A stretch of DNA of 64,000 nucleotides, from the NCBI RefSeq assembly GCF_015291645.1, contig NZ_CP030055.1, forward strand, positions 4,960,001-5,024,000. The letters are read 5' to 3'. Position numbers and translations under genes: made by a program. The notes under the pieces were generated by a model. That model ran no database searches. It had not been told where the DNA came from and saw only the letters and a program-made list of their open reading frames with translations. Below, in pieces: positions 29,464 through 55,904 of the stretch (the first letter of the stretch is position 1; the number at the start of each line of letters is the position of its first letter). The DNA comes from Bradyrhizobium sp. CCBAU 53340. Lineage in GTDB: Bacteria > Pseudomonadota > Alphaproteobacteria > Rhizobiales > Xanthobacteraceae.

Positions 29464-30342
29464 TCAGGGGCCGTAAATCACCAGTTCAGAATCCGACAAA
29501 TCGGCGAGCCGGGGACAATGCGGACCCTTGAAGTATTTGCGACCGATCGGCTCCCTATAGATACCGATGAGGCCGGGCACGGGTCCGTTGGCGTCGAGAG
29601 CGACCGAGATCCAACCACGCCGTACCAAAAAAAGACCTATGGTTCCGGCGCACGTAATATAATCGACCACATCAGCGCAATAGATCATTTGCATCGAAGG
29701 CAGACTGATGCGGCCCAGCCGCATCGGCTGCAGGACGAACGGAAAGGCGCGCCCATTACTGGCGCGGCATACCAGGACGAAACACCCGTATGACGCATGA
29801 CGTGCAAGCAACGCCGCGTCAGACTTTGACAATCCGTCAATCGCCCGCGTGTCTCGGCGCACGATCTCCACGCGCATATCCTTGACCGGGCGCGATAAGG
29901 CCGGGAAGGAAAAAAACAAGCCGCCGCAATAACGACGGAACCCCTGCGCTTCGATGGCTTTCCAGGTCCATTGCGCCGGGCTGATGTTGACGTAAGTAAC
30001 CTCCTTATGACGTTGCGCGACCTTGGTCAGCATCGGTGCGTAGCTGCGAAAGGCAGGCTCTACATACCAGCTCGAGAGATTGCACCGGATCGAGATGCTT
30101 TCACCATCGCATCTGGCGGTGTAGATCAAAAGCAGAGCACCAACCGGCGTCCGATCATGCTCGAGCATATAGCCGAAGAGCGGGAAGCTGTCGGGTGTCT
30201 CGCGCACAGCCAAGCGCCGGAGTCCATCGATCCAGTATTCGCGCGGACGAAGCGGAAAGCCGTTTGCCAGAAGATCTGCGATGGCGTCGAGATCGACCAC
30301 TTCTATCTCACGACATCGGATCATGTTCGAACTCTCAGTCAT
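29464..30342 (-). CDS. GNAT-like acyltransferase at the end of the carrier-protein operon
   Basis: A 292-residue protein started at 30342 (MTESSNMIRCREIEVVD), with AGGAGG 12-18 bases upstream. The N-terminal half looks like a GNAT fold: IREI-like first strand (CREIEVVDLDAIADLLANGF), a central GALLLIYTA strand, SWYVEPAFRSYAPML (acyl-CoA-pocket strand/helix region), and VTYVNISPAQWTWKAIEAQGF, typical of the last helix pair. The second half is less clear. GNAT enzymes transfer acyl groups from CoA or ACP to amines, so this could release or N-acylate the product of the cluster. It follows the MetA-like gene by 20 bases, making it the last of five. Substrate unknown. Confidence 0.65.
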   Translation of the reverse strand: MTESSNMIRCREIEVVDLDAIADLLANGFPLRPREYWIDGLRRLAVRETPDSFPLFGYMLEHDRTPVGALLLIYTARCDGESISIRCNLSSWYVEPAFRSYAPMLTKVAQRHKEVTYVNISPAQWTWKAIEAQGFRRYCGGLFFSFPALSRPVKDMRVEIVRRDTRAIDGLSKSDAALLARHASYGCFVLVCRASNGRAFPFVLQPMRLGRISLPSMQMIYCADVVDYITCAGTIGLFLVRRGWISVALDANGPVPGLIGIYREPIGRKYFKGPHCPRLADLSDSELVIYGP

Positions 30343-30362
30343 GCAACCGGATGGCCTCCTGC

Positions 30363-31487
30363 TTACCGGGCTTGCGCGCGCGCCAGATGAGCCGATCGAG
30401 CGGCAACCAGCCTGCGCTGATGGCGCCGTGTTGCAAGTCCGACTGCAGACAGAGACTCTTCCCGCGCTCCCGATGCGTTTGAGCGGCGGGCTTGCTGCGA
30501 CACCAAGTACAGCAACCAGTTGCGGTATATGCGCTGGGCTGGCAGACGCCATACGTTGCTCAAGTTATTCGCCAGCCGATCGAGAGGAAAATCGGCAAAA
30601 AGCTCCGACCTTCTGTGGGAGAGGGCCTCCTGTCGGAAAGCGATCAGTAATTCTTCCGCGCCCTCGTTCAGATAGCTCCTCGGTATCGTCGGGCAGACTT
30701 CGTTCTCTCCACGAAGAAAGCGGCCCATATCTCGTCGATACTCACCCAGCAGGCTCAGGGTTTCGTATTCCGGATGCCCTTGGAAATACACGAATAGGCT
30801 CTTCTTCTGCGGCTTGATGAAGCAGTCGACCCCGCTCTCCCTCGACCAGGAGAGAACCGAGTATCCGCAGTTCGAGAGATCCTCCTCCTGCACCTCGTTC
30901 CACCGGGCGTGGGGTATTCGGAAGGTCCGCGGCACATCCTGCATCAACGGATGGCGTCTCGTCTTGGTTTGAGCGAAAACGCCGAAGCATTTGGTGCCCA
31001 GCTTGTGACGAGGAACGCCGTCCATATGCAGGACCGCTCCGTGGACGGCCAGGCAGGAAAACACGGACGAGGCGGTATTTTCCGTCGCCCAGTCCGCAAT
31101 CTCGACGAAGCTGGGCCAATATGGCTCTTCGGCCAGGCGGGAGGCTTTGGGTTCGGCGCCTGTCACGATCACACCGTCCATCCTCCTGCTCAGGAGATCA
31201 CCAACGCCACGATAGTATCGATGCACGTAATCGCGTCCCCATTCCGAACGAGGCGTCGACTCAATTGCGTAGAAGTGCAGCCTGACGCAAAGCCGTCCGG
31301 CAGCGGCATTGAGCAGGTCGAACACTTGGCGCTCGGTTGAGATCAACGCTGCGTCAGACATGTTGTTGATGAGGCCGATGTCGAGACACTCCTCCCGCCT
31401 TTCCCCGGCTACCTTCGTGTAGGCCGCGCTCGGCGCTCTCGAAAAGAGGTGGTGCTCCTGTGACTCTATGTCGATCAAGACAGTCAT
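30363..31487 (-). CDS. Homoserine O-acyltransferase, MetA family
   Basis: A 374-residue enzyme of the MetA (homoserine O-succinyl/acetyltransferase) family. Catalytic residues are visible: nucleophile C145 (SVFSCLAVHGAV), and the H238-x-E240 pair (VYFQGHPEYE) of the Cys-His-Glu arrangement. The N-terminus DIGLINNMSDAAL is a MetA hallmark, as are YYRGVGDLL and DGVIVTGAEP. It has about 60 extra C-terminal residues, rich in Arg and Ala, beyond the usual 300-310. In ordinary metabolism it activates homoserine for methionine synthesis; here it stands between a MetY-like gene and a GNAT gene in a carrier-protein operon, so it more likely supplies O-acylhomoserine to the pathway. Which acyl donor (acetyl or succinyl) is not decided by sequence alone. 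Confidence 0.85.
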   Translation of the reverse strand: MTVLIDIESQEHHLFSRAPSAAYTKVAGERREECLDIGLINNMSDAALISTERQVFDLLNAAAGRLCVRLHFYAIESTPRSEWGRDYVHRYYRGVGDLLSRRMDGVIVTGAEPKASRLAEEPYWPSFVEIADWATENTASSVFSCLAVHGAVLHMDGVPRHKLGTKCFGVFAQTKTRRHPLMQDVPRTFRIPHARWNEVQEEDLSNCGYSVLSWSRESGVDCFIKPQKKSLFVYFQGHPEYETLSLLGEYRRDMGRFLRGENEVCPTIPRSYLNEGAEELLIAFRQEALSHRRSELFADFPLDRLANNLSNVWRLPAQRIYRNWLLYLVSQQARRSNASGAREESLSAVGLATRRHQRRLVAARSAHLARAQAR

Positions 31488-31514
31488 TCGAATGCCTCTA
31501 TGATTGATGAAGCA

Positions 31515-32789
31515 TCAGTTCACAGCGCCGAGGGCCTGATCGAGATCTGCGAGGATGTCGTCGATGTGCTCGATTCCGACGCTCAGCCTGATCATCTCCG
31601 GTCGCACGCCGGCTTTGTCCTGTTCTTCGAACGACATTTGCCGGTGCGTTGTCGATGCGGGATGGCAGACAAGCGTCTTCGCGTCGCCTATATTGACCAG
31701 CCGCTTGCAGAGCTTCAGCCTGTCGTAGAACCGCTTGCCCGCCTCGAAGCCTCCGGCGACGCCAAAAGTCAGCAGCGAACATGCTCGACCGGCCAGGTAT
31801 TTCTGCGTCAACGCGAAATAAGGGCTGTCATGAAAGCCCGCATAGTTCACCCACTCGACGCGACGATCATGGCGCAAGAACCTCGCGACTTTCTCCCCGT
31901 TCTCCACATGCCGCTCGATCCGTAGCGCGACGGTCTCGATCCCTTGGAGCAGCAGGAAAGCGTTCATCGGCGCCAGCACGGCGCCTGTGGTTCTCTGGGA
32001 AACCGCGCGGCAACGCGCAATGTAGGCGGCGGCGCCGTAGCGTTCCGTGAAGATCAACCCATGGTACGATTTCTCCGGCTCATTCATCATCGAAAAGCGC
32101 CGTCGATGCTCCGCCCAGGGAAACCTACCGCTGTCGGTGATAACTCCTCCGAGCGTCGTGCCATGCCCGCCCATAAACTTTGTCAGAGACTCTACGACGA
32201 TGTCTGCGCCGTACTCGATCGGTCGGAGCAGGATCGGAGTCGGTACAGTGTTGTCCACTATCAGCGGAACGCCATGCTTGTGCGCGACATCGGCCATCGC
32301 CTCAATGTCGCAGACATTTCCGGCCGGATTCCCGACGCTCTCGCAGAACACGGCTCGCGTATCGTCGTCGATGAGCCCTGCGACACTTTCCGGCCGGTCG
32401 TCTTCCGAGAAGCGGACCGTAATGCCCTGCCTCGGCAGGATATGGGCGAACAGTGTGTGCGTAGTACCGTAGAGCTGCGGCACCGAGACGACGTTGGAGC
32501 CCATCTCGGCGACGTTGACGACCGCATAATTCACGGCAGCCTGACCGCAGGCAACGCTCAGCGCCTCGATGCCTCCCTCAAGGGCGGCGACACGCTTCTC
32601 CAACACAGCGTTGGTCGGATTGCCGATGCGGGTATAACGGAAGCCGTCCGCTTCGAGGTTAAAGAGCGCCGCTCCATGGTCGGCGCTGTCGAATGCATAG
32701 GAGGCCGTCTGGTAGATCGGCACAGCAACGGCCTTCGTTGCCGGATCATCTTCAAAACCGCCGTGCACCGCGAGCGTCTCTCTTCGCAT
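31515..32789 (-). CDS. O-acylhomoserine sulfhydrylase-like PLP enzyme (MetY family)
   Basis: A 424-residue Cys/Met-metabolism PLP enzyme started at 32789 (MRRETLAVHGGF). PLP-binding lysine is K204 (ESLTKFMGGHG), with D179 (VDNT) contacting the pyridine nitrogen, YTRIGNPTN (52-60) for phosphate, and QLYGTTHTLF for ring stacking. The length and the long insert place it with MetY rather than MetB/MetC. MetY uses O-acylhomoserine and replaces the acyl group at C-gamma, normally with sulfide. The gene is next to a MetA-like gene and inside a carrier-protein operon, so the nucleophile may instead be a pathway intermediate, as in RtxA-type dihydrorhizobitoxine synthesis. Spaced 27 and 32 bases from its neighbours. 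Confidence 0.85.
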   Translation of the reverse strand: MRRETLAVHGGFEDDPATKAVAVPIYQTASYAFDSADHGAALFNLEADGFRYTRIGNPTNAVLEKRVAALEGGIEALSVACGQAAVNYAVVNVAEMGSNVVSVPQLYGTTHTLFAHILPRQGITVRFSEDDRPESVAGLIDDDTRAVFCESVGNPAGNVCDIEAMADVAHKHGVPLIVDNTVPTPILLRPIEYGADIVVESLTKFMGGHGTTLGGVITDSGRFPWAEHRRRFSMMNEPEKSYHGLIFTERYGAAAYIARCRAVSQRTTGAVLAPMNAFLLLQGIETVALRIERHVENGEKVARFLRHDRRVEWVNYAGFHDSPYFALTQKYLAGRACSLLTFGVAGGFEAGKRFYDRLKLCKRLVNIGDAKTLVCHPASTTHRQMSFEEQDKAGVRPEMIRLSVGIEHIDDILADLDQALGAVN

Positions 32790-32821
32790 GGTCGCTGACC
32801 CCGCTGCTCTGCGGTCGCGGG

Positions 32822-33826
32822 CTAGCTCCCGACTTCCTTGGCGCATCGGAATTCCTCGATTGCTGAAATCGGCCGACGATCGGTTTTTGGGAACTCGAGA
32901 AGATCGCGCACCGCGACCGGCCATAGATCGACGTCTTTGCCGTGGGTATGGAACATGGCGACGGCGAGACGGTCCATTCCGAAGGCCACACAGGCCGTGT
33001 GAGCCGGCTCGGATGCCGTATCGACGATCCCCCAGGTCGCGCCGAAATGATTCCGGTGGTAGTTGAAGCTCATACAGGCGGTCGGCCGCTCCTCGGAGCG
33101 CAGAGGCACCAGCAATTCAAACTTGAGCGACTGCTGCTTCTGGGTCACCGCCATCATCTGCCCGACCCGGCCGAAGAACGGATCGTTCGCATGGTCGATT
33201 TTGAAAGTCAGCCCGAGATCCCGGGCGATCTTCTGGGCGCGTATGATCCAACGGTCCCGGAATCCCGAGACGAGATCAGCACTACCGATGCAGACGAATT
33301 CACGCATCCGGAAGGACTGCAACCGATCGAGATGGCGCGAGGGTTCACGACGGAAACAATCAGCGGCCACGTCAAAGCGCCAGCCACCGGGCGGCACGGG
33401 CCCTCGGCTCGCCGCGATGGGATAGACCGGATAGCAGGCGGCCGGCGACAGAACGAGATCCGCCGCTGACAGCGACGCGGTCCAGTCACCGCCGGCATCG
33501 AAGCGACTGACCGCGGCGTCGATCTCGCTATCCAGGCCATGCAAGCCACAGACGCAGCCCAGGAGATTGGGAAAGCTTTTCAGGTAACCAGACTTCTCGA
33601 GTTGTGAGCGGTTCATGACCGGCGGGAAACGCATTACCTCGGTGTCCGGCTCGCGATTCCGCGAGATCACCGCCGCAATTCGTTGAACTACGTCTTCGTA
33701 GAGTGCGGTGCGGCCGTAGACCCCGGGAGAGCCCATCTCATAGAACAGCACATCGGCAAGATAGCCCAACGGATCGGCTGGAGGCGGATTGGAGTCCGCC
33801 GGCGTTTCAACGATGGCGACGTTCAT
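32822..33826 (-). CDS. Amino acid:[carrier protein] ligase (aminoacyl-tRNA-synthetase-like)
   Basis: A 334-residue homologue of the catalytic core of atypical seryl-tRNA synthetases that loads an amino acid onto a carrier protein instead of tRNA. Start at 33826 (MNVAIVETPADSN) has GAAGGAAAG upstream. Class II motif 2 reads FRREPSRHLDRLQSFRMREF (158-177) and motif 3 GMDRLAVAMF (283-292). Zinc ligands C131, E176 and C279 are in place, identical in number to those I recall for the Bradyrhizobium enzyme Bll0957, which prefers glycine. There is no tRNA-binding N-terminal domain. The partner carrier protein is probably the one at 35312. Second gene of the leftward operon, 26 bases after the acyl-CoA dehydrogenase. 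Confidence 0.92.
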   Translation of the reverse strand: MNVAIVETPADSNPPPADPLGYLADVLFYEMGSPGVYGRTALYEDVVQRIAAVISRNREPDTEVMRFPPVMNRSQLEKSGYLKSFPNLLGCVCGLHGLDSEIDAAVSRFDAGGDWTASLSAADLVLSPAACYPVYPIAASRGPVPPGGWRFDVAADCFRREPSRHLDRLQSFRMREFVCIGSADLVSGFRDRWIIRAQKIARDLGLTFKIDHANDPFFGRVGQMMAVTQKQQSLKFELLVPLRSEERPTACMSFNYHRNHFGATWGIVDTASEPAHTACVAFGMDRLAVAMFHTHGKDVDLWPVAVRDLLEFPKTDRRPISAIEEFRCAKEVGS

Positions 33827-33852
33827 CGGGCCCTTTCCTTCTCGGACAAATA

Positions 33853-35079
33853 TCAATCACATAGAGACTCCGGAACCGCGCTCATCAGCGTGGCGGTACC
33901 CATGCTGGCGAGGATGCGATCGTTGTTGATCATGATCGGAGCGGAAAGCACGTCTCGCAGGTGGCGGCCGATGCTCACGTCGGTGTCGTTGCGGTATCCA
34001 GAAAGGCCGCAAGTGCGCATCGCGTGCATGACGGTCACAACCGCGAGCTCGGAGGCTTCCACCTTGAGAAGGTTGATCGAGGATTGGAAGTCGACGGACG
34101 AGAGTGCGCGCACATCTCGTCCGCGAGCTTCATAGGACTGGAGGCCCGCGGCGATGACGGCGCGCAACTTGGTCAAGGTCATCCTGGCAGCGGTGTAGTG
34201 CGTCGCACCGGGAGGCATGTTGCCGCCCGCCCCGCGGGCAGCCTTGCGGATGAACAGCTGCGCCCGGTCCACCGCCGCTGCCGCGATTCCCGCCCACACC
34301 GAGGACCAGCACAGATGGGCGACAGGTGTCATCGTCTGCGCATGGATCTTTTCATATGCCACTGGGAATATCTGTTCGGCAGATCCCCTGAAATTCAGCC
34401 TGAAGCCGGCACTGCAAGTCCCACGCATGCCGAGCGTCTCCCACGCGAGGGTGCGCTCCAGCGTGTATTCATCACGGGTGATGGCCAGCAGCACTTGATC
34501 GGAGCCGGCGGCAGAGTCGGAGCGGCGGGCGGTGGTGATGATGCCGTCCGCCTCGGCGCCATACGAAATCACCGTCGCGTCACGCACCAACGAAATCTCG
34601 GCGCCGGCGTGCTCCACGGCAGCCGAACTGAAGCGTATGTTTCCACCATTCTGGCCTTCCGTGGTCGACGATGCCAACAGCAACTGCTCGGCAGCCACGC
34701 GGCGCATAAGGTTCTCGTGCCAGCCACTGCCCGCGCCGTGACGAACTAGGCACGCAATCTTGGTCTGATGCATCGCGAAGATCATCCCCACCGAGGCGCA
34801 GGCGCGGCCGAGCGCGTAACACATGTCGGCGACCTCGGAAATTGACGCCCCGCCTCCGCCGTACTCGATCGGAATCTGAGCCCCCAAGAGTCTCTCCTTG
34901 CGCGCCGCATTGATCGCCTTCAGAGGGAATAACGCCGCGCGATCGACCGTCTCGGCCTCCGCGGCGGCGACCTCCGCGACCTTTGCCGTTCGCTGCTGTA
35001 ACAAGGAGCTGTCGGGAGAGAATGCTATTCGCCCATTTTGCTTGGCGACGTCGCGGAACTGGACTTCCTGCACAGTCAT
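33853..35079 (-). CDS. Acyl-CoA dehydrogenase-like flavoprotein acting with the carrier-protein ligase
   Basis: A 408-residue member of the acyl-CoA dehydrogenase fold. The N-terminal helical part includes QIPIEYGGGGASISEVADMCYALGR, which is typical; the central beta domain has LASSTTEGQNGGNIRF in place of the usual TEP-GSD-type motif, and the C-terminal helices (about 250-400) include the region RMTLTKLRAVIAAGL. The glutamate base normally found near the C-terminus of acyl-CoA dehydrogenases cannot be assigned with confidence. It is the first gene of the leftward operon and directly precedes the amino acid:[carrier protein] ligase, so its substrate may be an aminoacyl or acyl thioester on a carrier protein. 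Confidence 0.82.
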   Translation of the reverse strand: MTVQEVQFRDVAKQNGRIAFSPDSSLLQQRTAKVAEVAAAEAETVDRAALFPLKAINAARKERLLGAQIPIEYGGGGASISEVADMCYALGRACASVGMIFAMHQTKIACLVRHGAGSGWHENLMRRVAAEQLLLASSTTEGQNGGNIRFSSAAVEHAGAEISLVRDATVISYGAEADGIITTARRSDSAAGSDQVLLAITRDEYTLERTLAWETLGMRGTCSAGFRLNFRGSAEQIFPVAYEKIHAQTMTPVAHLCWSSVWAGIAAAAVDRAQLFIRKAARGAGGNMPPGATHYTAARMTLTKLRAVIAAGLQSYEARGRDVRALSSVDFQSSINLLKVEASELAVVTVMHAMRTCGLSGYRNDTDVSIGRHLRDVLSAPIMINNDRILASMGTATLMSAVPESLCD

Positions 35080-35110
35080 AGGCCAGAGCCTCCCCTCTCA
35101 TACTTGTCAT

Positions 35111-35122
35111 CATCGGCCGATG
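35111..35122. promoter_or_regulatory. Palindrome in the divergent promoter region of the ten-gene cluster
   Basis: CATCGGCCGATG is a perfect 12-base palindrome, 32 bases upstream of the leftward operon start and 190 bases upstream of the carrier-protein start. It is the only obvious symmetrical site in the 232-base divergent region. It may be an operator shared by both operons. Confidence 0.4.
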
Positions 35123-35311
35123 CGAAGATCTCCGCTCGAAACCGACAACTAGCTCACTTCTCCCTACCGCGTCGTTGGAGCAGAAGTGGGTATCGGGAAA
35201 CTTCCAGTCCCGGGCGAGGTACCTCCGAAGCAGAGCTATTGATCCAAGGACCAGGTGAGTATCCTCCCACCCAAAGTGATGACGCTTGGACCCGGCAGGA
35301 GACCGGCCGAA

Positions 35312-35590
35312 ATGTACGACTTTTCCGTCAACGTTCAGAACCGCGTTATATCGGTCGTCAGGAGTGTCCTCCAGCAGAACGAGATCGCGGCCGATGTCCA
35401 CCCAGAGTCGCGGCTCGTGGACATTGGATTGAGTTCGATGGGCATGGTCGAGTTGATGCTTAAGGTCGAAGCCGAGTTCGACCTTATCCTCCCTCAATTT
35501 GAGATCACGCCCGAAAACTTTCAATCGGTGAAGGCGATGGAGCAGATGATTCTCAATCAGCTCGGATCCGGCCGGAATGAAGTCAATTGA
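35312..35590 (+). CDS. Aminoacyl carrier protein (ACP-like)
   Basis: A 92-residue carrier protein started at the ATG at 35312 because AGGAG lies 10 bases upstream; an upstream in-frame start at 35255 would add 19 residues. The phosphopantetheine site is GLSSMGMVEL with S42 in the position of the usual DSL serine (here S-S-M). Four-helix ACP pattern: RVISVVRSVLQQN, ESRLVDIG, VELMLKVEAEFDLIL and ENFQSVKAMEQMILNQL. It is divergent from the amino acid:[carrier protein] ligase gene and is very likely its aminoacyl acceptor. It is the first gene of the rightward operon and overlaps the next gene by 14 bases. Confidence 0.88.
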   Translation: MYDFSVNVQNRVISVVRSVLQQNEIAADVHPESRLVDIGLSSMGMVELMLKVEAEFDLILPQFEITPENFQSVKAMEQMILNQLGSGRNEVN

Positions 35591-37448
35591 ACAGAGATTC
35601 GACTTCGACAACAAGGCGAGCCGCATCGGATGGATGCGTGCGCAGGCCGAGCCAACAACCAGAGACGACGCTCCGCCGCGCAGACGCTCTGCCGCCAAGA
35701 GCTGGCTGCAAGCTATCGCGCTAACGGCACAGCTGGAAAACCATCCGCACCGCTTGTTCGCCGACATCGTCGAGGACTGGGCACGGCGTCAGCCTGGTCG
35801 ACCTGCCCTTCTCTCGCGTGGTCAGTCCCTCACTTATCGGGAACTCTCCGACCGGATCAACCGGTATGCGCGTTGGGCACGGGACCTGGGCCCGCGCGCC
35901 GGCCTCACCGTCTGCCTGCTGATGCCGAACCGGCCGGACTACCTGGCCTGTTGGCTTGGTATCAGCAGCATTGGCGGGACGGTGGCGCTGATCAACACCA
36001 GGCTCGTCGGTCCGTCGCTCGCACACTGTATCGACGTCGCTCATGCCGATCACCTCATCCTCGCGGCGGAGTGCGAGGACGCGTTCGAAAGTGCGCGTCC
36101 CCATCTCCATGGCGCGCCGAAATGTTGGACTGTTGGCATCGACGATTCAGACCATGATCTGGATGCGGCGCTGGCTGCCTTCGAACCGCGACCAGTGTCC
36201 TCGACCGAACGGGGCGAAGTCACGATCGATCAGCGTGCGCTTCTCATCTACACCTCGGGCACCACAGGCCTTCCGAAGGCGGCTAACGTCAGCCATCGCC
36301 GCGTTCTCGCCTGGGCTGGCTGGTTTGCGGGACTGACCGACGCGTCCACCGACGATCGCCTCTATGATTGCCTACCGCTCCATCACTCCGTGGGCGGTGT
36401 CGCTGCCCCCTGCAGCACGCTCTGCGCCGGCGGCTCGGTCGCGATCGCCGAGAGGTTCTCCACTGCCAGGTTCTGGGACGACATCGAGCATTTCGATTGC
36501 ACTATGTTCCAGTATATTGGCGAGCTCTGCCGCTATTTGCTGAAGGCCTCAACGGTCGAACATGAGGCGCGACACCGGCTTCGATTGGCTGTTGGCAACG
36601 GATTACGCGGCGATATCTGGGAGACGTTCGCCAGTCGGTTCGCGATTCCGCAGATCATTGAATTCTATGCCGCAACCGAGGCCAATTTTTCACTGTTTAA
36701 CGTCGACGGCAAACCGGGCGCGGTCGGCCGGATCCCGCCCGTTCTGGCACATCGCTTTCCAGCCTCCATCATCAAGGTCGATGCCGAAAGCGGCAGCCCG
36801 GTTCGGAACATCGACGGGCTCTGCATCGCCTGCACCCCCGGTGAGACCGGCGAGGCCGTAGGGCGTATCGGCAGTGCCGGTCGTGGCGGCTGGTCTTTCG
36901 AGGGCTACACGGACCCATCCGAGACCGTCAGAAAGATCTTGCGCGATGTCTTCGCGGTTGGTGATGCCTGGTTCCGCACGGGCGATCTGATGATGCGCGA
37001 CGAGCAAGGTTATTTGCACTTCATCGACCGTATGGGCGATACTTTCCGCTGGAAGGGCGAGAATGTCGCGACCAGCGAAGTGGACGACGCAATCACGGCC
37101 TGCCCCGGCGTTCTCGACGCCGCGACCTATGGCGTTGCGGTGTCTGGGACCGATGGCCGCGCCGGCATGGCAGCCTTGGTGGTGAGCTCGGATTTTGATT
37201 TCCGTGTATTCCGGAACCACCTTTCGCGCAGGCTGCCGCCTTATGCAATTCCGGCCTTCGTCAGGCTATGCCCGTCGCTCGAGACGACTGAGACCTTCAG
37301 GAAGAAGAAGCAGCGACTGATCCGCGAGGCATTCAATCCCTCGGTGGTGAGCGATCCGCTGTTCCTGCGTGATCCGGCGAGCGGCGACTATCATTCGATC
37401 GGCCCGTCCGTTTACGCGCTCGTTAGTGAGGGCGCAATCAAGCTCTGA
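35577..37448 (+). CDS. FATP-type long-chain acyl-CoA synthetase (AMP-forming ligase)
   Basis: A 623-residue adenylate-forming enzyme. The P-loop YTSGTTGLPKAA is at 225-236, followed by the acceptor pocket region CLPLHHSVGGV, AATEANFSLF (adenine-binding, near 365-375) and WFRTGDLM and DRMGDTFRWKGENV, which is the FATP/very-long-chain-acyl-CoA-synthetase signature. It activates a fatty or branched carboxylic acid as acyl-adenylate and loads it on CoA or, more likely in this setting, on a carrier protein. The N-terminal about 50 residues are variable. It overlaps the upstream carrier protein gene by 14 bases and is followed 34 bases later by a second carrier protein. Confidence 0.88.
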   Translation: MKSIEQRFDFDNKASRIGWMRAQAEPTTRDDAPPRRRSAAKSWLQAIALTAQLENHPHRLFADIVEDWARRQPGRPALLSRGQSLTYRELSDRINRYARWARDLGPRAGLTVCLLMPNRPDYLACWLGISSIGGTVALINTRLVGPSLAHCIDVAHADHLILAAECEDAFESARPHLHGAPKCWTVGIDDSDHDLDAALAAFEPRPVSSTERGEVTIDQRALLIYTSGTTGLPKAANVSHRRVLAWAGWFAGLTDASTDDRLYDCLPLHHSVGGVAAPCSTLCAGGSVAIAERFSTARFWDDIEHFDCTMFQYIGELCRYLLKASTVEHEARHRLRLAVGNGLRGDIWETFASRFAIPQIIEFYAATEANFSLFNVDGKPGAVGRIPPVLAHRFPASIIKVDAESGSPVRNIDGLCIACTPGETGEAVGRIGSAGRGGWSFEGYTDPSETVRKILRDVFAVGDAWFRTGDLMMRDEQGYLHFIDRMGDTFRWKGENVATSEVDDAITACPGVLDAATYGVAVSGTDGRAGMAALVVSSDFDFRVFRNHLSRRLPPYAIPAFVRLCPSLETTETFRKKKQRLIREAFNPSVVSDPLFLRDPASGDYHSIGPSVYALVSEGAIKL

Positions 37449-37482
37449 CGTCGGCTCGGAAGCCGAAAATGAGGTGTGTACC

Positions 37483-37728
37483 ATGCTGGTCAAAACGAAG
37501 ATTTTCTCCATGATGAAGCAAATCGCCGAGGAGCAGAATTTAATGCTCCCGCCGCTTGAGGATGACCTGTCCCTGAACGAAACCGGGTTCGATTCACTGG
37601 CCTTCGCCATCCTGGTTGCCCGGCTGGAGGACGAGCTCAATGTCGACCCCTTTACTGCCGCGGAAGACGCAACCTTCCCCTCGACCCTCGGTGAGTTTGT
37701 CAGGGCCTACGAGAATGTCCCCGCCTGA
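37483..37728 (+). CDS. Second acyl carrier protein
   Basis: An 81-residue ACP. The phosphopantetheine-attachment motif is TGFDSLAFAILVARLEDE with S38, and the acidic helix II is typical of ACPs that receive acyl groups. It begins at 37483 (MLVKTKIFSMMKQ). It is distinct in sequence from the carrier protein at 35312, being of the common DSL type, and is sandwiched between the two AMP-ligases; its stop overlaps the start of the next gene by 14 bases. It probably carries the acyl chain loaded by one of these ligases. Confidence 0.88.
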   Translation: MLVKTKIFSMMKQIAEEQNLMLPPLEDDLSLNETGFDSLAFAILVARLEDELNVDPFTAAEDATFPSTLGEFVRAYENVPA

Positions 37729-39103
37729 CGCCATCGCGCTACACCAGTACCTCGGCGAAGGGCTGACGGATCGCACGATTTCCGATGCCCGGCAAAGCGT
37801 ATGTCTGACAGACATGATCGAGCGTAGCTGCCTGATCGGCGGGTCGTCCTGCGAGCTGTCGGGCCGCTCGGTGCTGCTTGCAACGTCCAGGCAGCTGCTA
37901 TCCGCGCTTGCCATGATCGAGCTCGACGGCGCCGCCCGCCGCATGCTCCTTTGCCCGCCGGACGTCGATTGGGAGCGCCTTCAGATCCTCATTGCGCAGG
38001 CTGCCATCGATGTCATCGTCACCGACCGGGCGCTATCCGGCGACCGCACGGGAAAATGCACAGTTGTCGGCATCGACCTGCCCAAACGAAAGGCCCCGCG
38101 GCGGAAAGCAGACCATGTTACCGAATGGTTGATGCTGACATCGGGGACCTCGGGCCTGCCGAAGATCGTCCGACATACGCTCGATGGCCTCGCCGGCGCG
38201 ATCGTCGCCGACGGGCCTGCGCGCTACCACGGCGCTACGTGGGCGACGTTCTACGACATCCGTCGCTACGGCGGCCTGCAAATCTTCTTGCGAGCCGTGA
38301 TCGGCGGCGGATCTATGGTGCTCTTAGAGCCCGGGGAAGCCGTCGCGGCGCATGTGGCGCGGCTGCGCGCGAGCGGCGTCACCCATATCTCCGGAACCCC
38401 CTCGCACTGGCGCAAGATCCTGATGAGCGGCGCGGCCGCCAACTTCTCTCCGCGCTATGTCCGCCTGTCCGGGGAAATCGCCGACCAAGCCGTACTCGAT
38501 GCCTTAACACAGGCATTTCCGCACGCGTCGATCGGTCATGCCTATGCCTCGACCGAAGCAGGAGTTGGTTTCAGCGTCGACGATGGACGCGAAGGGTTTC
38601 CCGCCCACCTGATGGGACCGAGTCAAGGCGGCGTGGAGATGAAAGTGGTCGAGGGCTCCCTGCGGATCCGTTCGCGACGTACCGCACGCGGCTATGTAGG
38701 GGCAGATGCGCCCGCTCTTGTTGACGCAGAAGGATTCGTCGATACCGGCGATATGGTCGAGTTGCGCGGCGAACGATACCACTTCGTCGGAAGACGAGGC
38801 GGCATTATCAACATCGGGGGGTTGAAGGTGCATCCGGAGGAGATTGAGGCGGTGATCAACCGGCATGCCTCCGTTCGGATGTCGCGTGCGCGATCACGGA
38901 AAAGCCCAATCACGGGAGCCATTGTGGTCGCCGATGTTATCCTCGCGGACGGCACCGATGGAAACCGTCACGAGGCGATCCGCGCCGAGATCCTTAGCCA
39001 GTGCAGGGATCGTCTGCTCACTTGGAAAGTGCCAGCCATGATCCGCTTCGTCGAGCGGCTCGACGTCACAGCGGCAGGGAAACTGGCGCGGACCGATGCG
39101 TAA
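37715..39103 (+). CDS. AMP-dependent synthetase/ligase (shortened N-terminus)
   Basis: A 462-residue adenylate-forming enzyme beginning at 37715 (MSPPDAIALHQYL). The P-loop reads LTSGTSGLPK at 141-150 (with S in place of T in the second position), followed by ISGTPSHWRKIL, AYASTEAGVGF and DTGDMVELRGERYHFVGRRGG. The catalytic lysine near the end is K456 (TAAGKLART). It is some 70-90 residues shorter at the N-terminus than a standard acyl-CoA ligase, lacking part of the first subdomain. It lies between the second carrier protein (overlap of 14 bases) and a reductase (overlap of 8 bases), so it probably works on that carrier protein. Confidence 0.88.
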   Translation: MSPPDAIALHQYLGEGLTDRTISDARQSVCLTDMIERSCLIGGSSCELSGRSVLLATSRQLLSALAMIELDGAARRMLLCPPDVDWERLQILIAQAAIDVIVTDRALSGDRTGKCTVVGIDLPKRKAPRRKADHVTEWLMLTSGTSGLPKIVRHTLDGLAGAIVADGPARYHGATWATFYDIRRYGGLQIFLRAVIGGGSMVLLEPGEAVAAHVARLRASGVTHISGTPSHWRKILMSGAAANFSPRYVRLSGEIADQAVLDALTQAFPHASIGHAYASTEAGVGFSVDDGREGFPAHLMGPSQGGVEMKVVEGSLRIRSRRTARGYVGADAPALVDAEGFVDTGDMVELRGERYHFVGRRGGIINIGGLKVHPEEIEAVINRHASVRMSRARSRKSPITGAIVVADVILADGTDGNRHEAIRAEILSQCRDRLLTWKVPAMIRFVERLDVTAAGKLARTDA

Positions 39104-39821
39104 CGTCCTTGTCACAGGTGGCAGCCGGGGAATCGGCCTTGCCATTGCGCGCAGGCTCGTCGCGTCCGGCGAGTACAACGTGATCGCGCTTGCGCGCCAC
39201 GAGAGCGGAGAACTTGCGGCTGCGGTCCGAGAGGCGCAACAGCGACTGCACTTCCGCGCCTGCGATCTTGCGGTGATCGATGAGATTCCCGCTCTGGCAA
39301 AGTCACTGCGCAACGAATTCGGCGCAGTTTATGGTCTCGTCAACAACGCCGGTATCGGCGCCGAGGGGCTGCTGGCAACCATGCACAACTCCGAAGTCGA
39401 GGCCGTGCTTCGCCTCAACATCTTGTCGCCAATCATCCTGACCAAATACGTGGTGCGCCACATGATGGTCGATGGCGCGGGACGGATCGTCAACATTTCC
39501 TCCATCGTCGCTTCGACCGGCTACAGCGGCCTTTCCGTGTATGCCGCGTCCAAGGCCGCGATTGCCGGCTTCACCCGTTCGCTCGCCCGAGAGGTTGGCC
39601 GGGTCGGCATCACCGTAAACGCGGTCGCGCCCGGCTTCATCGACACCGAATTGACCCGGTCTTTGGATGAGGAGAGCCGTGGGCGCATCACCCGCCGCAG
39701 CGCATTGCGCCGTCTGCCCGAAGCTGACAACGTCGCGTCCGTAGTCGAATACCTCCTTGGTGAGGGCGGCCGAAACATCACCGGCACCACGATGACCGTC
39801 GATGCCGGCAACACAGCCTGA
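39096..39821 (+). CDS. Short-chain dehydrogenase, FabG-like
   Basis: A 241-residue NAD(P)H-dependent reductase. Cofactor motif TGGSRGIGLAIA (7-18), NNAG (83-86), and the catalytic triad S136, Y149 and K153 (SVYAASKAAI) are all present; the C-terminus ends ITGTTMTVDAGNTA, as in beta-ketoacyl-ACP reductases. In this operon it presumably reduces a keto group on the carrier-bound intermediate. It overlaps the AMP-ligase gene by 8 bases and ends the rightward operon. Confidence 0.92.
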   Translation: MRNVLVTGGSRGIGLAIARRLVASGEYNVIALARHESGELAAAVREAQQRLHFRACDLAVIDEIPALAKSLRNEFGAVYGLVNNAGIGAEGLLATMHNSEVEAVLRLNILSPIILTKYVVRHMMVDGAGRIVNISSIVASTGYSGLSVYAASKAAIAGFTRSLAREVGRVGITVNAVAPGFIDTELTRSLDEESRGRITRRSALRRLPEADNVASVVEYLLGEGGRNITGTTMTVDAGNTA

Positions 39822-40193: not shown

Positions 40194-40883
40194 CTACCCA
40201 CAATTCTTCTCGGGCATCTTGTCGTTATCCATGGTGGCACGTCCATATTGCGCGATCGCGATGGCCGCGAGCACCGTCCGATTGCTGACTGCAAGCTTCT
40301 GAAAAATCTTGTGAAGATGCTGCTTGATCGTGCCGTCGGCAATGTTCAACCGCCGCCCGATCTCCTTATTCGACAGTCCTTTTGAGACCAGACGCATGAT
40401 TTGGCGCTCGCGGTCCGTGAGCGTTGCGAGCATGTGTTCAGCATCCCCCCTCTCCTCCTGCGACCCGATAGGATCGGATGACGTCGTCGGCGACAAGCTG
40501 TCGCCCTCAGCTATCCGCCGCAAGAATTGGAGCAGGACCTCGGGCTCCGTGTCTTTCAGGACGATGCTGCAGGTTGCGGGTGCGGCTTCCAGTACGCGCG
40601 CGCAATCCTCACTCGAGCCGAAAAAGACCACATGTGTCGAATGACTTTCTGACAAACGATTTTGTGATATGTGGGTCGAACTCAGCAATAGCTCCGCGCA
40701 CCCAGGCATCGCAGGATCCACGATCGCGATGTCGGGAGCAAAGTTCTTTATCGCTTCGATGCAGCTTGCAGTGTTCTCACAAGATGCAACGATTCTAAAA
40801 TCGGGCAAGGCGCCGAGCACGATGCTCAGGCCCTCTAAGACAATTGGATGCCGGTGTGCAATGACTACATTGATACGTCGCAT
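40194..40883 (-). CDS. NarL/LuxR-type regulator with altered receiver
   Basis: A regulator of 229 residues from the Met at 40883 (MRRINVVIAHRHP); an earlier Met at 40910 adds 9 residues. The receiver keeps the phosphoacceptor-like D (IAIVDPAMPG) but the acidic pair usually found at strand 1 is replaced by HRH (VIAHRHPIVLEGL). The C-terminal LuxR DNA-binding domain (about 155-215) is intact: LTDRERQIMRLVSKGLSNKE followed by IGRRLNIADGTIKQHLHKI. No sensor kinase is nearby. It probably controls either the carrier-protein cluster to its left or the surface-polysaccharide genes to its right. Confidence 0.85.
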   Translation of the reverse strand: MRRINVVIAHRHPIVLEGLSIVLGALPDFRIVASCENTASCIEAIKNFAPDIAIVDPAMPGCAELLLSSTHISQNRLSESHSTHVVFFGSSEDCARVLEAAPATCSIVLKDTEPEVLLQFLRRIAEGDSLSPTTSSDPIGSQEERGDAEHMLATLTDRERQIMRLVSKGLSNKEIGRRLNIADGTIKQHLHKIFQKLAVSNRTVLAAIAIAQYGRATMDNDKMPEKNCG

Positions 40884-40998
40884 CGGGCGATCCTCCGTCG
40901 AGGTCCCCAACTAACGCGCTGAGCATACTCTATTTCCAAGATTTCCAAGCCATCGGCGTATCAGTCGAACTTCTTCCTGACATGATATCCTTGCTGCA

Positions 40999-41286: not shown

Positions 41287-41417
41287 CCAACCTGGACGTC
41301 GGCAGTCCGAGTGAACACGACGGCCGCCAATGGCTGGTTGTCTCTCGCGAGACTCAATTTGGTTGCGTTATTTTGTTGCGTTTCTGTGGTGTGTCATTGC
41401 GTCGGCTGGAGGACCCA

Positions 41418-42299
41418 ATGAGGAGGTATCAATCTTACGAAGTGGCTCTTATCGGAAAGAGCGTTTTAATTCGAGAAGGCATTGCCAGAATACTGCATGA
41501 AGCGAATTTTCGCATGCCGATATCGGTCTCGTCCCCTGAGGAATTGCCAAGCTCGCTTCAAGCTCAGCAACTGATGTTTCTCATCGTCCACACCGGCGAT
41601 GATTTCGATGTTGCGGTATCGGAAATCGGATATGTGAAAGATCGATATCCCAACGCGCCCGTTGCGATCGTGTCGAACAATTATCGGCCGGTCGAGCTCG
41701 CCTCCGCATTTCGTGCGGGCGCCAGCGGTTACTTCGTCAACGTCAATTCGTGCGACGCCTTCGTCAAATCGGTTGAACTGGTGACGATGGGCGAGACGGT
41801 CTTCCCACCTGCATTCCTGTCGTTCGCTCTCGACGGCAATCGCGAGCGCGAAACGACGGAGCGCAGCCAACATGAACATGCGCCCATTACGGCTCAAGAG
41901 AATGCGGTCTCACCCCAACTTTCTCCGCGCGAGAACGCAATCCTAGCCTGCCTCATCGAAGGTGATTCCAACAAGAGCATTGCCCGAAAGATCGATATCG
42001 CCGAGGCGACCGTGAAAGTCCACGTCAAGGCGATTCTGCGAAAGATACGGGTTCAAAACCGAACGCAGGCAGCGATCTGGGGGATGAACCATGGGTCGCA
42101 GCTACGAGCTGCAAACGACCACGCGCCGGCGGCCGGTGAAGCCGGCGCTGCCGTCGTGACCCCCGGGGCGATTCCCGAACCGAAGCATCTCGACGAGACC
42201 GCTCACTTGGTCCGCCAGTCTAGTCACGTGGCGGTACCCCCGGTCGACGGTCTACTCCGCAAGGGAGTGGATCGCGCGGCGGCACGGCTCTACAAGTAG
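41418..42299 (+). CDS. NarL/LuxR-type regulator with degenerate receiver
   Basis: A regulator of 293 residues from the Met at 41418 (MRRYQSYEVALIGKSVLIREG). The receiver-like domain (1-125) lacks the phosphoacceptor Asp: the third strand reads MFLIVHTGDDFD. The usual Lys of strand 5 is replaced (GYFVNVNS). The LuxR domain (about 165-230) is intact: LSPRENAILACLIEGDSN then KSIARKIDIAEATVKVHVKAI. A C-terminal extension of about 60 residues follows, Ala/Pro-rich. Such pseudo-receiver regulators next to exopolysaccharide genes are common in Bradyrhizobium. Output would be set by a ligand, partner or protein level rather than phosphorylation. Confidence 0.85.
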   Translation: MRRYQSYEVALIGKSVLIREGIARILHEANFRMPISVSSPEELPSSLQAQQLMFLIVHTGDDFDVAVSEIGYVKDRYPNAPVAIVSNNYRPVELASAFRAGASGYFVNVNSCDAFVKSVELVTMGETVFPPAFLSFALDGNRERETTERSQHEHAPITAQENAVSPQLSPRENAILACLIEGDSNKSIARKIDIAEATVKVHVKAILRKIRVQNRTQAAIWGMNHGSQLRAANDHAPAAGEAGAAVVTPGAIPEPKHLDETAHLVRQSSHVAVPPVDGLLRKGVDRAAARLYK

Positions 42300-43061
42300 G
42301 CGCAGGACCCGGGAACAACTGCCGTCGCGCCAACGAGCCGATCGCGGAGCGGTGCTGCGACAGTTTCGCCGACCTCCCTGACGTCCGGGCGGCTGGCAGG
42401 AGGTTACCCCGCTGCTCTTGTGTACACAGCACGCAAGACAGCGCGGCAGTCTCCTCGGTTATCTGAGACGCGGAGTGCGCGGGCATGCGGGAGCTGGCCC
42501 TTTGTCGCCCCCGCAGCGATTCCTGCTTGTACCTCGCCGGCGAGAGAAGATAGCTGATGATCCTGCGCGTGCCGGTCTTGATCTCGACCGTCACTGCCAT
42601 GCCAACGCCGAGCTTGACGAGCTTGTTCTCCATCTGCAGTGCTCGCGCTCCTGTTCAGGGATTCTTGCAGCTAATTCAGACCGCGCCGCTTTCGCTCGTA
42701 GATTCCGCTGGGAAGCTTTCTGGCTTGCTTTCGCCGCCAGCGCGGCCGATTTGCAGGTCGAACCTTCGGCAGTGCCGTCGCTCCATCGTAGTTACCTAAT
42801 TATCGTCATTTCCTATCCACTGAGCGGTAAGGTACTGATACCCGGAGATGAGCGACTAGGTAGTAGAGTGCCATGGATCATGCGTTCTTCACCAAATTGC
42901 CGGCCTCTACACGTGCGACTTTGTCTGCTGCATCTTCCGCCAACCGACGATCGCATTAGCGACAGATTTAGCTTGGTCATCGTCGCGAAGCCTCAACTAT
43001 CAGCACTGGTGCGAAAATCGTGCAGACCAATAGAACGGATAATTGGGTAAATCGGGACAAT
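42300..43061. other. Gap holding an HlyD-like remnant
   Basis: No intact gene. Apart from the HlyD remnant at 42508-42645, the remaining sequence gives no protein family I recognise on either strand. The part near 42640-43060 has lost frame integrity and may be further decayed secretion-system DNA. Confidence 0.5.
42508..42645 (-). pseudogene. Remnant of HlyD-type adaptor C-terminus
   Basis: Read leftward: KLVKLGVGMAVTVEIKTGTR, continuing RIISYLLSPARYKQESLRG. This matches the end of the intact HlyD gene (KFVKLGPGMAVTVEIKTGTR...ESLRER) at 47196-48620 over about 40 codons, including the nucleotide sequence around cgattcctgcttgtacct. No start or other domain is attached. It is a decayed copy of that gene's 3' end, 4.7 kb away. 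Confidence 0.8.
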
Positions 43062-44120
43062 ATGCCGCCTGACTTTCGTCCGGCACCCACCATGTCCCTG
43101 GTAGAAGTGCTAGCCTTCATACGACGACATCTCTCGATCATATCGCTGGCAACCTCGGCAACGCTTGGCATTGCCATAATTTACCTCATTACCGCGGCAC
43201 CCACGTATACGGCGAAGGCGCAACTCGTGGTGGAATCGAGAGCGGTCGACCCCACCTCGGTGTCAACGATCGTGGAAAGTCAGATCAAGATCATAACGTC
43301 TGAGAGCATCGCTAAAGCTGTGATCGAAAAGCTCGATCTTGCTCAAGATCCGGAATTTGAGGCCAGCCAAGCCAGCCTCCTGCACAGCATGACCAGCTCG
43401 ATATCCCGTCTGGTCGGCTGGAGTGGACCGGAAACAAACGCAAATGCGGCTCGGTATATTGTGGAATCCTTCCAACGCAAGCTTTCAGCCAAGCGTCTGG
43501 GTCCCACCTATCTTGTCGAGATTACCTTCGACTCCAGAGATCCTGATCGAGCGGCGCAGATCTTAAACACCGTCGCAGAAAAATATATTACCCGTCAAAT
43601 GGACTCTGCCGGCTTACGAGATGATTCGTGGATCACGGATCGATTGAACGAATTGAGCAATCAAGCATTGACTGCCCAAAAAGCATTGGAGGATTTCAGT
43701 AGAAACGGGAAAGATACTCCGGATTCCGCTGCTACTATCGATAGACTGGCGGCCGCGGCTGAATCATCCAAAAGCGCCTACGATAACTTTCGCCACGTGC
43801 TGCGTAGGATGGAAGCCACACGACAACAATCCTTACCGGTGTTTGAGGCGAGTATCATCACTGGGGCGTCGCCTCCTTTGAGGGCCAGTTGGCCAAAAGC
43901 CAGGGTCGTGCTTGGAGCAGCGATTTTTGCGGGAGCTCTTCTTGGCATCGCTTTCGGAATACTGCGCGAACTTTCCGAAATTCTCGCCATCGGGCGGGAA
44001 CCTCGCCTAAGCGCACAAGACGACTGGATCGAGGGACCTATTCCGGACGTGCTTCGATCAGATCATCAATCTGAAATATCGGCAAAGACAAGGCCGGCGC
44101 GCGTTACGGGCTCGGGGTGA
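43062..44120 (+). CDS. Wzz/GumC-like polysaccharide chain-length protein
   Basis: Inner-membrane protein of 352 residues from the ATG at 43062 (MPPDFRPAPTMSLVEVLAFI); the Met at 43092 is an alternative. It has an N-terminal membrane segment (IISLATSATLGIAIIYLIT) and Wzz domain (about 8-110, with APTYTAKAQLVVESRAVDPT), periplasmic helical region with QTSAG-like loops, and a second C-terminal membrane segment (VVLGAAIFAGALLGIAFGIL). The periplasmic part is short for a GumC/ExoP-type protein and there is no tyrosine kinase domain. It controls polymer length in exopolysaccharide or O-antigen export. Neighbouring AsnB, GT4 and deacetylase-like genes support a polysaccharide role. Confidence 0.82.
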   Translation: MPPDFRPAPTMSLVEVLAFIRRHLSIISLATSATLGIAIIYLITAAPTYTAKAQLVVESRAVDPTSVSTIVESQIKIITSESIAKAVIEKLDLAQDPEFEASQASLLHSMTSSISRLVGWSGPETNANAARYIVESFQRKLSAKRLGPTYLVEITFDSRDPDRAAQILNTVAEKYITRQMDSAGLRDDSWITDRLNELSNQALTAQKALEDFSRNGKDTPDSAATIDRLAAAAESSKSAYDNFRHVLRRMEATRQQSLPVFEASIITGASPPLRASWPKARVVLGAAIFAGALLGIAFGILRELSEILAIGREPRLSAQDDWIEGPIPDVLRSDHQSEISAKTRPARVTGSG

Positions 44121-44481
44121 GCGCGATCTCGCGGCCCATGGAGGCGCTCGACCCCGGTGACATGTTCAACCTGTTCGATCGCCTGGATCGCCTGCATTCC
44201 AAGGGGCTCTCGGCTTGGCCGCTCACTCGCGTTCCTGGCGACCACGCGACTCGCACCAGCTGCGGAGCCGCTCGGCGGTGAACCACCTCCCTCGCTCGCG
44301 ATCCTAAGCTGACTTCGCTGCTTAACGCTCACGGCGTTCCGTGACGTGCTGGGCTTCTGATGATCGAGAATGGGTAGTCCGAAAGGGCCGAGCCGCGGGC
44401 CGGTTCAAAATACTATGTTCGTGAGGTGTGGGTTTGGATGCCACGCGTTGAAGTCCTCTTATCAGGTGAGCCTTTTCAAGC
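44121..44481. other. Gap before asparagine synthetase
   Basis: 361 bases. One short open stretch near 44100-44290 (LDPGDMFNLFDRLDRL) looks protein-like but has no start, and no family is recognised. The sequence may be a remnant. The region 44340-44481 presumably carries the asnB promoter. Confidence 0.4.
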
Positions 44482-55745: not shown

Positions 55746-55904
55746 CAGTGGGAACACGGCGAGCTTTCGTACGAGCCTAACAGGAGCACAATCTCGAGGT
55801 CGCGGTTCAAACCGGAGTAAGCCAAAAGGGGCAAGGTCAATTCGATCCACATGATGCTATTGTAACGAGGCGATGCGAGTTCATCTCGCTTCTCCAACAC
55901 CTGA

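Follow-up and report, generated by a model that had tools for sequence, protein, structure and literature searches.

The window analysed here is a stretch of 64,000 nucleotides from Bradyrhizobium sp. CCBAU 53340, corresponding to positions 4960001-5024000 of contig NZ_CP030055.1 in a genome of 8.7 Mb. Between its positions 29,464 and 39,821 lies a cluster of ten genes around an amino acid:[carrier protein] (aa:CP) ligase. The list of open reading frames (ORFs) and the alignments showed that all ten ORFs are present and open, in the order given in a preliminary description of this DNA. They form two head-to-head operons, with ACAD (acyl-CoA dehydrogenase-like), ligase, MetY, MetA and GNAT-like genes on the minus strand and CP1 (carrier protein 1), FATP, CP2, AMPlig2 and FabG on the plus strand (Table 1). 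Start codons were picked from alignments, and all distances were calculated from these starts. The minus-strand gaps are 26 (ACAD/ligase), 32 (ligase/MetY), 27 (MetY/MetA) and 20 nt (MetA/GNAT-like); the plus-strand genes overlap by 14 (CP1/FATP), 14 (CP2/AMPlig2) and 8 nt (AMPlig2/FabG), with a gap of 34 nt between FATP and CP2. A distance of 232 bp separates the divergent starts of ACAD and CP1. The two tight divergent operons described earlier were thus borne out, and the spacing first proposed was close to that found here (20-34 nt for gaps, 8-14 nt for overlaps).

Table 1. Features of the ten-gene cluster (positions in the window) and the evidence for each; curated cut-offs are in brackets.
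Feature	Positions	Strand	Evidence
GNAT-like protein, 292 aa; predicted acyl/aminoacyl transfer	29464..30342	-	ORF, conserved family
MetA-like homoserine O-acyltransferase	30363..31487	-	PF04204 263 bits; NF003776 456 bits (358); motifs
MetY-like O-acylhomoserine sulfhydrylase family enzyme, dependent on pyridoxal phosphate (PLP)	31515..32789	-	TIGR01326 599 bits (495.1); PLP Lys motif
Amino acid:[carrier protein] ligase (aaCP)	32822..33826	-	NF005479 456 bits (357), profile 14-316 of 318; PDB 3mey
ACAD-like flavoprotein; predicted oxidation of glycyl-S-CP1	33853..35079	-	Pfam Acyl-CoA_dh_N 44 bits (22.9); C-domain 21.8 bits, slightly below 22.4
Putative divergent promoter region with palindrome GAGGTACCTC	35080..35311	.	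Intergenic comparison
CP1, aminoacyl carrier protein	35312..35590	+	PP-binding 25.1 bits (20.8); PDB 4h2s_C; attachment Ser motif
FATP-type long-chain acyl-CoA synthetase	35577..37448	+	NF006134 734 bits (625)
CP2, second carrier protein	37483..37728	+	PP-binding 25.6 bits (20.8); GFDSL motif
AMPlig2, second AMP-forming ligase, predicted CP2 loader	37715..39103	+	AMP-binding 66.6 bits (29.9); C-terminal domain 38.1 bits
FabG-like short-chain reductase	39096..39821	+	adh_short 181 bits (26.6)

Protein families were assigned by Pfam and NCBIfam profile searches using curated cut-offs and by sequence and profile searches of the PDB. Profile matches confirmed nine of the ten family labels first proposed; the GNAT label found no match in any of these resources. 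As had been stated, no condensation, ketosynthase or thioesterase domain was matched in Pfam among the ten proteins. CP1 and CP2 keep the attachment-serine motif, MetY the PLP-lysine motif, and MetA its Cys and GHPEY motifs. The window ligase matched the crystallised Bll0957 (PDB 3mey) with 562 bits (E 5.1e-168), and alignment indicated that the Cys of AACYP, the Glu of RREPS and the Cys of CVAFG, presumably the zinc ligands, are identical in 3mey. A second ligase of the same genome, at locus L096, matched 3mey better (697 bits), so the window ligase is a paralogue of Bll0957. CP1 is a stand-alone carrier gene lying one gene away from the ligase in divergent orientation, and matched Aminoacyl carrier protein 1 (PDB 4h2s_C) with 102 bits (E 1.2e-28). 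Against the PDB, MetY matched 8sf5 (E 9.9e-144) and FUB7 8erb (E 2.2e-126). The motif FYDIRRYGG of AMPlig2 was invariant in 19 aligned sequences; its Asp may, as a guess, bind an amine.

The ACAD profile matched short-chain ACADs in the PDB, with 7p98 as the best, as well as the nitrososynthase 3mxl, DnmZ, DszC and a prolyl-ACP dehydrogenase. As these matches are of both kinds, dehydrogenation and N-oxygenation are both possible for this enzyme. The catalytic Glu usual in ACADs presumably corresponds to a C-terminal position that is Asn here; an argument built on this residue was dropped because the best match, 7p98, has Thr at that place.

To place the cluster among its relatives, ligases above the family cut-off were counted in genomes of the same class (7 of 289, own genome included), of the same order (88 of 397) and of the family of genome G140 (4 of 96), whose GNAT-like protein has its closest named database proteins in Rhizomicrobium. 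We compared 59 ligase loci, made up of 31 order-level matches outside Bradyrhizobium, 9 further Bradyrhizobium loci, 10 class-level matches, the second copy of the window's own genome, 3 loci of family f6 and 5 plasmid loci. DUF1839 without a GNAT-like gene was found in 28 of them, a GNAT-like gene without DUF1839 in 18 (17 with ACAD), both in one and neither in 12. The 29 loci with DUF1839 were termed class A; class B comprises 16 non-Bradyrhizobium genomes and the window type. Every class A locus contained CP, ACAD, ligase and DUF1839, and 28 of 29 a GH2 gene; MetY, MetA, FATP, CP2, AMPlig2, FabG, the GNAT-like gene and the remaining class B genes were found in none of them at the thresholds used. 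DUF1839 and GH2 were found in 0 of the 16 class B genomes and had no match in the window (E<=1e-4). Filing the window locus under class A was rejected, since it has neither. GNAT-like and DUF1839 are thus mutually exclusive by class in this sample, with one sub-threshold match given below. In a ligase tree of 67 rows, class A together with L099 stood apart from the rest across a branch 1.11 long, with 100/100 support. Against two other MetY-type genes of the window's genome, 24 columns of MetY were special to class B.

The class B genomes shared most of the window's gene set. ACAD and ligase were found in all 16, CP1 in 14, MetY and MetA in 13, CP2 in 12, FATP, AMPlig2 and FabG in 11 and the GNAT-like gene in 10; ACAD accompanied the ligase in all 45 cases when the 29 class A loci are included. 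Homologues of all ten genes lay within 30 kb of the ligase in seven genomes (G140, G718, G303, G592, G471, G523 and G557) belonging to four families, none of them the window's. Nine of the ten were within this distance in G750 and G481, the GNAT-like gene being absent from both sets. The region of G739 is cut short by the end of its contig, a possible reason why MetY, MetA and FATP are missing from it. Because the regions compared were unequal in length (13-58 kb in class B and 11-20 kb in class A), matches were also counted within 7 kb of the ligase only: MetY and MetA were then found in 9 of 16, AMPlig2 and FabG in 11, FATP in 7 and the GNAT-like gene in 8, against 0 of 29 in class A, where two loci, L149 and L160, extend for under 7 kb on one flank. 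Gene order was shuffled between genera. Within this shuffling, CP2-AMPlig2-FabG stayed together in 11 of 11 class B genomes, MetY and MetA were adjacent in 13 of 13, and CP1 was divergent from ACAD-ligase in the window and in all 14 genomes of class B where CP1 was detected but co-directional in 29 of 29 class A loci. Query sequences for the esterase, the deacetylase and the cupin, and some of those for carriers and GNAT-like proteins, were drawn from the class B loci; CP1, CP2 and GNAT-like of G140 were first found using window queries.

The GNAT-like protein is the least well defined member of the set. The 292-aa protein did not match the GNAT superfamily acetyltransferase profile, and a 31-row profile of the family matched no PDB chain at E<=10. 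Its relatives form a conserved family with the database product name 'acyl-CoA acyltransferase', and this name is the sole support for its identity as an acyltransferase. The replacement of DUF1839 by this gene in class B is, in turn, what suggests a role in transfer, and nothing else does. The protein may also release the product, as previously suggested. A LuxI-type signal synthase was rejected for want of a Pfam match, and the proposal that the product is a signal was left unsupported.

The nearest named relatives of the ligase are nearly all from Bradyrhizobium. Among the best 80 of 130 relatives in a ligase scan, which were kept as loci, 22 contained the compact cluster (L001-L021 and L023) and the other 58 a related core of CP1, ACAD, ligase and GNAT-like; MetY-MetA begins 2-5 kb downstream in 11 of these 58 dispersed-type loci. 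A gene was scored as intact when it gave one stop-free match covering at least 85% of the trimmed query with at least 50% identity. MetA, MetY, ligase, ACAD, CP1 and CP2 were intact in 22 of 22 compact loci, FATP in 21 and AMPlig2 in 20. The genome of the window carries a second copy split between three separate loci, with CP1/ACAD/ligase/GNAT-like at 7.62 Mb (L096), FATP/CP2/AMPlig2/FabG at 7.11 Mb (L123) and MetY/MetA at 0.61 Mb (L124).

Co-occurrence was assessed in 117 Bradyrhizobium genomes, MetY being searched at E<=1e-150. AMPlig2 was found in 77, the ligase in 76 and MetY of this type in 75; 74 genomes had all three, 38 had none and 5 were mixed. The mixed genomes had AMPlig2 alone (G775, G821, G862), the ligase alone (G784) or a ligase fragment with MetY (G796). 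The ligase of G784 belongs to a class A locus (L165), and when L165 is left out the genome sets of ligase and MetY are identical. Together with their shuffled recurrence in other genera, these data supported the earlier claim that the ten genes belong together. In the 18 genomes having both compact-type ligase and AMPlig2, the two genes start 3.8-5.4 kb apart. At the compact cluster of G796 (L164), FabG stands immediately before the ligase fragment; the intervening genes appear to have been lost, perhaps in one deletion.

MetA and MetY look dedicated to this pathway. There is a MetX-like gene at another place in the window's genome (490 bits, slightly below the cut-off of 500 bits), and the only two PF04204 genes of this genome are those of the two pathway copies. 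Housekeeping methionine synthesis by MetA and MetY was disfavoured given the MetX-like gene and given that 42 of the 117 congeners yielded no MetY of this type at E<=1e-150. The methionine salvage genes mtnP and mtnA adjoin the CP1 of the dispersed copy at L096, L163, L166 and L169-L171 and at many dispersed-type Bradyrhizobium loci; a link to salvage was dropped, as the class B loci compared in other genera gave no match to either gene.

Relatives of the cluster carried additional partner genes. A thiamine pyrophosphate (TPP) enzyme was found in 11 of the 16 class B genomes, an HSL-type esterase in 10, a cupin in 9, a class-IV aminotransferase in 8 and a deacetylase in 4. In the 12 genomes searched as a whole (11 of class B and the window's own), the TPP enzyme scored above the NF006052 cut-off in all 12 and the aminotransferase above that of NF009896 in 10; in the window's genome they lie at 1.56 Mb and at 0.631 Mb, the latter about 17 kb from the dispersed MetY. 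Both genes adjoin the GNAT-like gene in several compact loci and in other genera. The ten genes of the window are therefore probably a subset of the pathway, and could not be called complete, as they had been.

These comparisons establish the gene set of the window cluster, its co-conservation and its family assignments. On balance, we favour the interpretation that the ten genes are the compact one of two copies of a conserved pathway with two carrier proteins, that of class B, dedicated to one small molecule. This pathway most likely draws on carrier-bound, oxidised glycine and on a unit derived from O-acylhomoserine. In a first step, the class-II synthetase-like ligase would load glycine onto CP1. 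Aminoacyl loading of CP1 is well grounded in the matches of ligase and carrier to 3mey and 4h2s_C, and Bll0957 is said, from work of 2010 and 2013, to prefer glycine. Since ACAD accompanies the ligase in both classes, it probably acts on aminoacyl-CP1; it would then oxidise the carrier-bound glycine to an imine or glyoxylyl-type thioester, or N-oxygenate it. In a third step, MetA and MetY would convert homoserine to O-acylhomoserine and on to a gamma-substituted 2-aminobutyrate, homocysteine being the simplest. AMPlig2 could then load this unit, or its 2-oxo acid formed by the class-IV aminotransferase, onto CP2, and FabG may reduce a carbonyl en route. FATP would supply an acyl group as a fifth step, and the GNAT-like protein would finally join the parts and release the product, the role predicted for DUF1839 in class A. 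All substrates, the order of steps three to six and a diffusible product are what we infer from these assignments.

Several observations weigh against this interpretation. The cluster of the window is known from its genes alone, and its presumed transferase, the GNAT-like protein, has no family match. The preliminary description had made its reading depend on co-conservation of the ten genes, and the set does recur in other genera; against strict co-conservation, all ten were intact in only 11 of the 22 compact Bradyrhizobium loci, and the second copy in the window's genome is split. GNAT-like and FabG were each intact in 15 of these 22 loci and broken or missing in 7, so that decay of the set is evident in some members of the genus. 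The co-occurrence of ligase, MetY and AMPlig2 gave Fisher p values (<1e-23) that ignore shared ancestry. Classes A and B were named after the loci had been seen, and the 31 order-level matches from other genera are a sample. A weak, sub-threshold match to the GNAT-like protein (30%, 76 bits) lies some 7 kb off in class A locus L112, and L137 and L140, also of class A, have weak deacetylase matches below threshold. In class B, six of 16 genomes (G750, G481, G674, G503, G070 and G432) gave no GNAT-like match in the ligase region. The ligase regions of G070 and G432 contain, close together, only ligase, ACAD, MetY and MetA, and that of G503 only CP1, ACAD and ligase; the genome-wide searches of these three covered the TPP enzyme and the aminotransferase.

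A minor but appreciable chance remains that the cluster serves to modify the cell surface, the oxidised carrier-bound glycine, with or without a fatty acyl group, being passed to an amino group on a surface sugar or lipid instead of entering a diffusible molecule. A surface role was given for the class A neighbourhood in 2010 (note in proof of PMC2922099), and both this note and the passage on DUF1839 in PMC10318531 indicate glycans. The GH2 gene of 28 of 29 class A loci points the same way, as do the polysaccharide-deacetylase gene in 4 of 16 class B genomes and at the dispersed MetY locus of the window's genome, and the Wzz and glycosyltransferase genes within the window. On the other hand, DUF1839 and GH2 occur in 0 of 16 class B genomes, in 12 of which the deacetylase was not found, and MetA, MetY, a second carrier and a second ligase would be superfluous for a simple aminoacyl transfer.

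A quite unlikely, more specific version of the small-molecule pathway would assemble its product with neither a condensation domain nor a ketosynthase. Glycine, loaded by a relative of tRNA synthetases and oxidised on its carrier, would serve as the electrophile for an acyl anion made by the TPP enzyme; the 2-oxo acid donor would come from the MetA/MetY amino acid through the class-IV aminotransferase, and FabG would reduce the ketone to a beta-hydroxy-alpha-amino (or 2,3-dihydroxy) acyl unit for transfer by the GNAT-like protein. If true, such a route would form C-C bonds on carrier proteins in a new way, and would give this branch of aa:CP ligases its first biological role.

We consider it improbable that ACAD works as a flavin N-oxygenase on glycyl-S-CP1 and that MetY couples the resulting N-O nucleophile to O-acylhomoserine, yielding an aminooxy (canaline-like) antimetabolite. 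Gamma-replacement is the chemistry of MetY, and 3mxl, DnmZ and DszC are among the ACAD profile matches; against this, a prolyl-ACP dehydrogenase and ordinary ACADs also match, the short-chain ACAD 7p98 best of all, MetY is nearest to ordinary sulfhydrylases, and no flavin reductase was recognised among the gene clusters common to at least five class B loci. Lastly, a chance meeting of a methionine-supply pair and fatty-acid genes with an unrelated aminoacyl-CP operon is strongly disfavoured and was rejected: every family does occur elsewhere and all 58 dispersed-type loci carry the core without the right operon inside the compared DNA, but the shuffled co-location over genera, the co-occurrence over 117 genomes and the 3.8-5.4 kb between ligase and AMPlig2 speak against it.

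The divergent region contains the 10-bp palindrome GAGGTACCTC at 35216-35225, which is also present in 15 of the 22 compact-locus intergenic regions. It occurs once in the window against 0.01 expected, and was chosen after inspection. No sigma-70-like site was found in the scan of 35080..35311. ATTTGAATTAAAT words are common to 56 of the 58 dispersed-type CP1/ACAD intergenic regions and lie outside the 30 most frequent words of the compact-group regions.

Two LuxR/NarL-type regulators with GerE domains lie beyond FabG (40194-40910, minus strand; 41373-42299, plus strand); as the clusters of both have 14 members among related loci, they may control the cluster. Further on, genes for a Wzz-like chain-length protein, an asparagine-synthase-like protein and a glycosyltransferase (43020-46461, plus strand; 54462-55850, minus strand) suggest a polysaccharide-type neighbourhood. 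A C39-peptidase ABC exporter of 886 aa and an adjoining HlyD-type protein (47196-51267, minus strand) look like a peptide export unit, and are adjoined by a 715-aa ORF that has no Pfam match. About 20 kb from the cluster, a single-module ligase of 978 aa (59536-62472, minus strand) combines AMP-binding, carrier-protein and hexapeptide-transferase domains.

Collectively, the data presented indicate a biosynthetic pathway that is real, co-conserved and uncharacterised. Biosynthesis on carrier proteins with an aa:CP ligase is known; the gene context of class B was not found described, a search of the open-access literature having returned no description of its gene set. A review of 2022 gave the role of the aa:CP ligase family as unknown. 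Our comparison names a sequence of steps that can be assayed, and so offers a route to the purpose of a long-orphaned enzyme family. The scattered second copy, which from the co-occurrence many congeners appear to carry too, is of a kind that a cluster-based genome miner is expected to overlook.

Among known systems, DltA/DltC and AlmE/AlmF use another ligase fold and are not known to involve an oxidation, a second carrier or homoserine genes. FUB7-type enzymes make C-C bonds with O-acetylhomoserine; the window MetY belongs to the same PLP family but is closer to the sulfhydrylases 8sf5, 7kb0 and 2ctz. RedW and PigA act on proline, which is loaded by another kind of enzyme. These prolyl carrier-protein dehydrogenases (PDB 4irn) are likewise ACAD-like and oxidise a carrier-bound amino acid, but the matches are weak and the window ACAD scores far below their curated cut-offs. 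Like the window system, DltA/DltC and AlmE/AlmF activate an amino acid as its adenylate and hold it on a carrier, according to PMC12930378.

Class A, of the Agrobacterium Atu2574 type (note in proof of PMC2922099), shares the carrier protein, the ACAD-like redox enzyme and the aa:CP ligase with the window. It differs in being co-directional, in having DUF1839 and GH2, and in lacking the other seven genes. The 2010 proposal in that note is that DUF1839 makes an amide bond and the redox enzyme monooxygenates the aminoacyl group; by our reading of the gene order, Atu2574 is the DUF1839 protein, and PMC10318531 describes DUF1839 as papain-like.

The closest system is that of Bll0957 and aminoacyl carrier protein 1 from Bradyrhizobium, whose ligase and carrier are close to those of the window and, as the PDB names indicate, have known structures (3MEY, 4H2S). 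The ACAD gene bll0958 is next in number, its identity as an ACAD of this family being suggested by that number and its name. In Table 1 of PMC10888616, bll0957 and bll0958 (acd) of B. diazoefficiens have raised mRNA and protein in a phaR mutant at 0.5% oxygen, among 30 genes raised at both levels; the same table contains bll7459 (branched-chain aminotransferase) and bll1105 (metZ). The window ligase differs from Bll0957 in being a paralogue inside a ten-gene cluster. The comparison of loci supplies the crystallised branch of the family with a concrete set of partner genes, distinct from the class A context of 2010.

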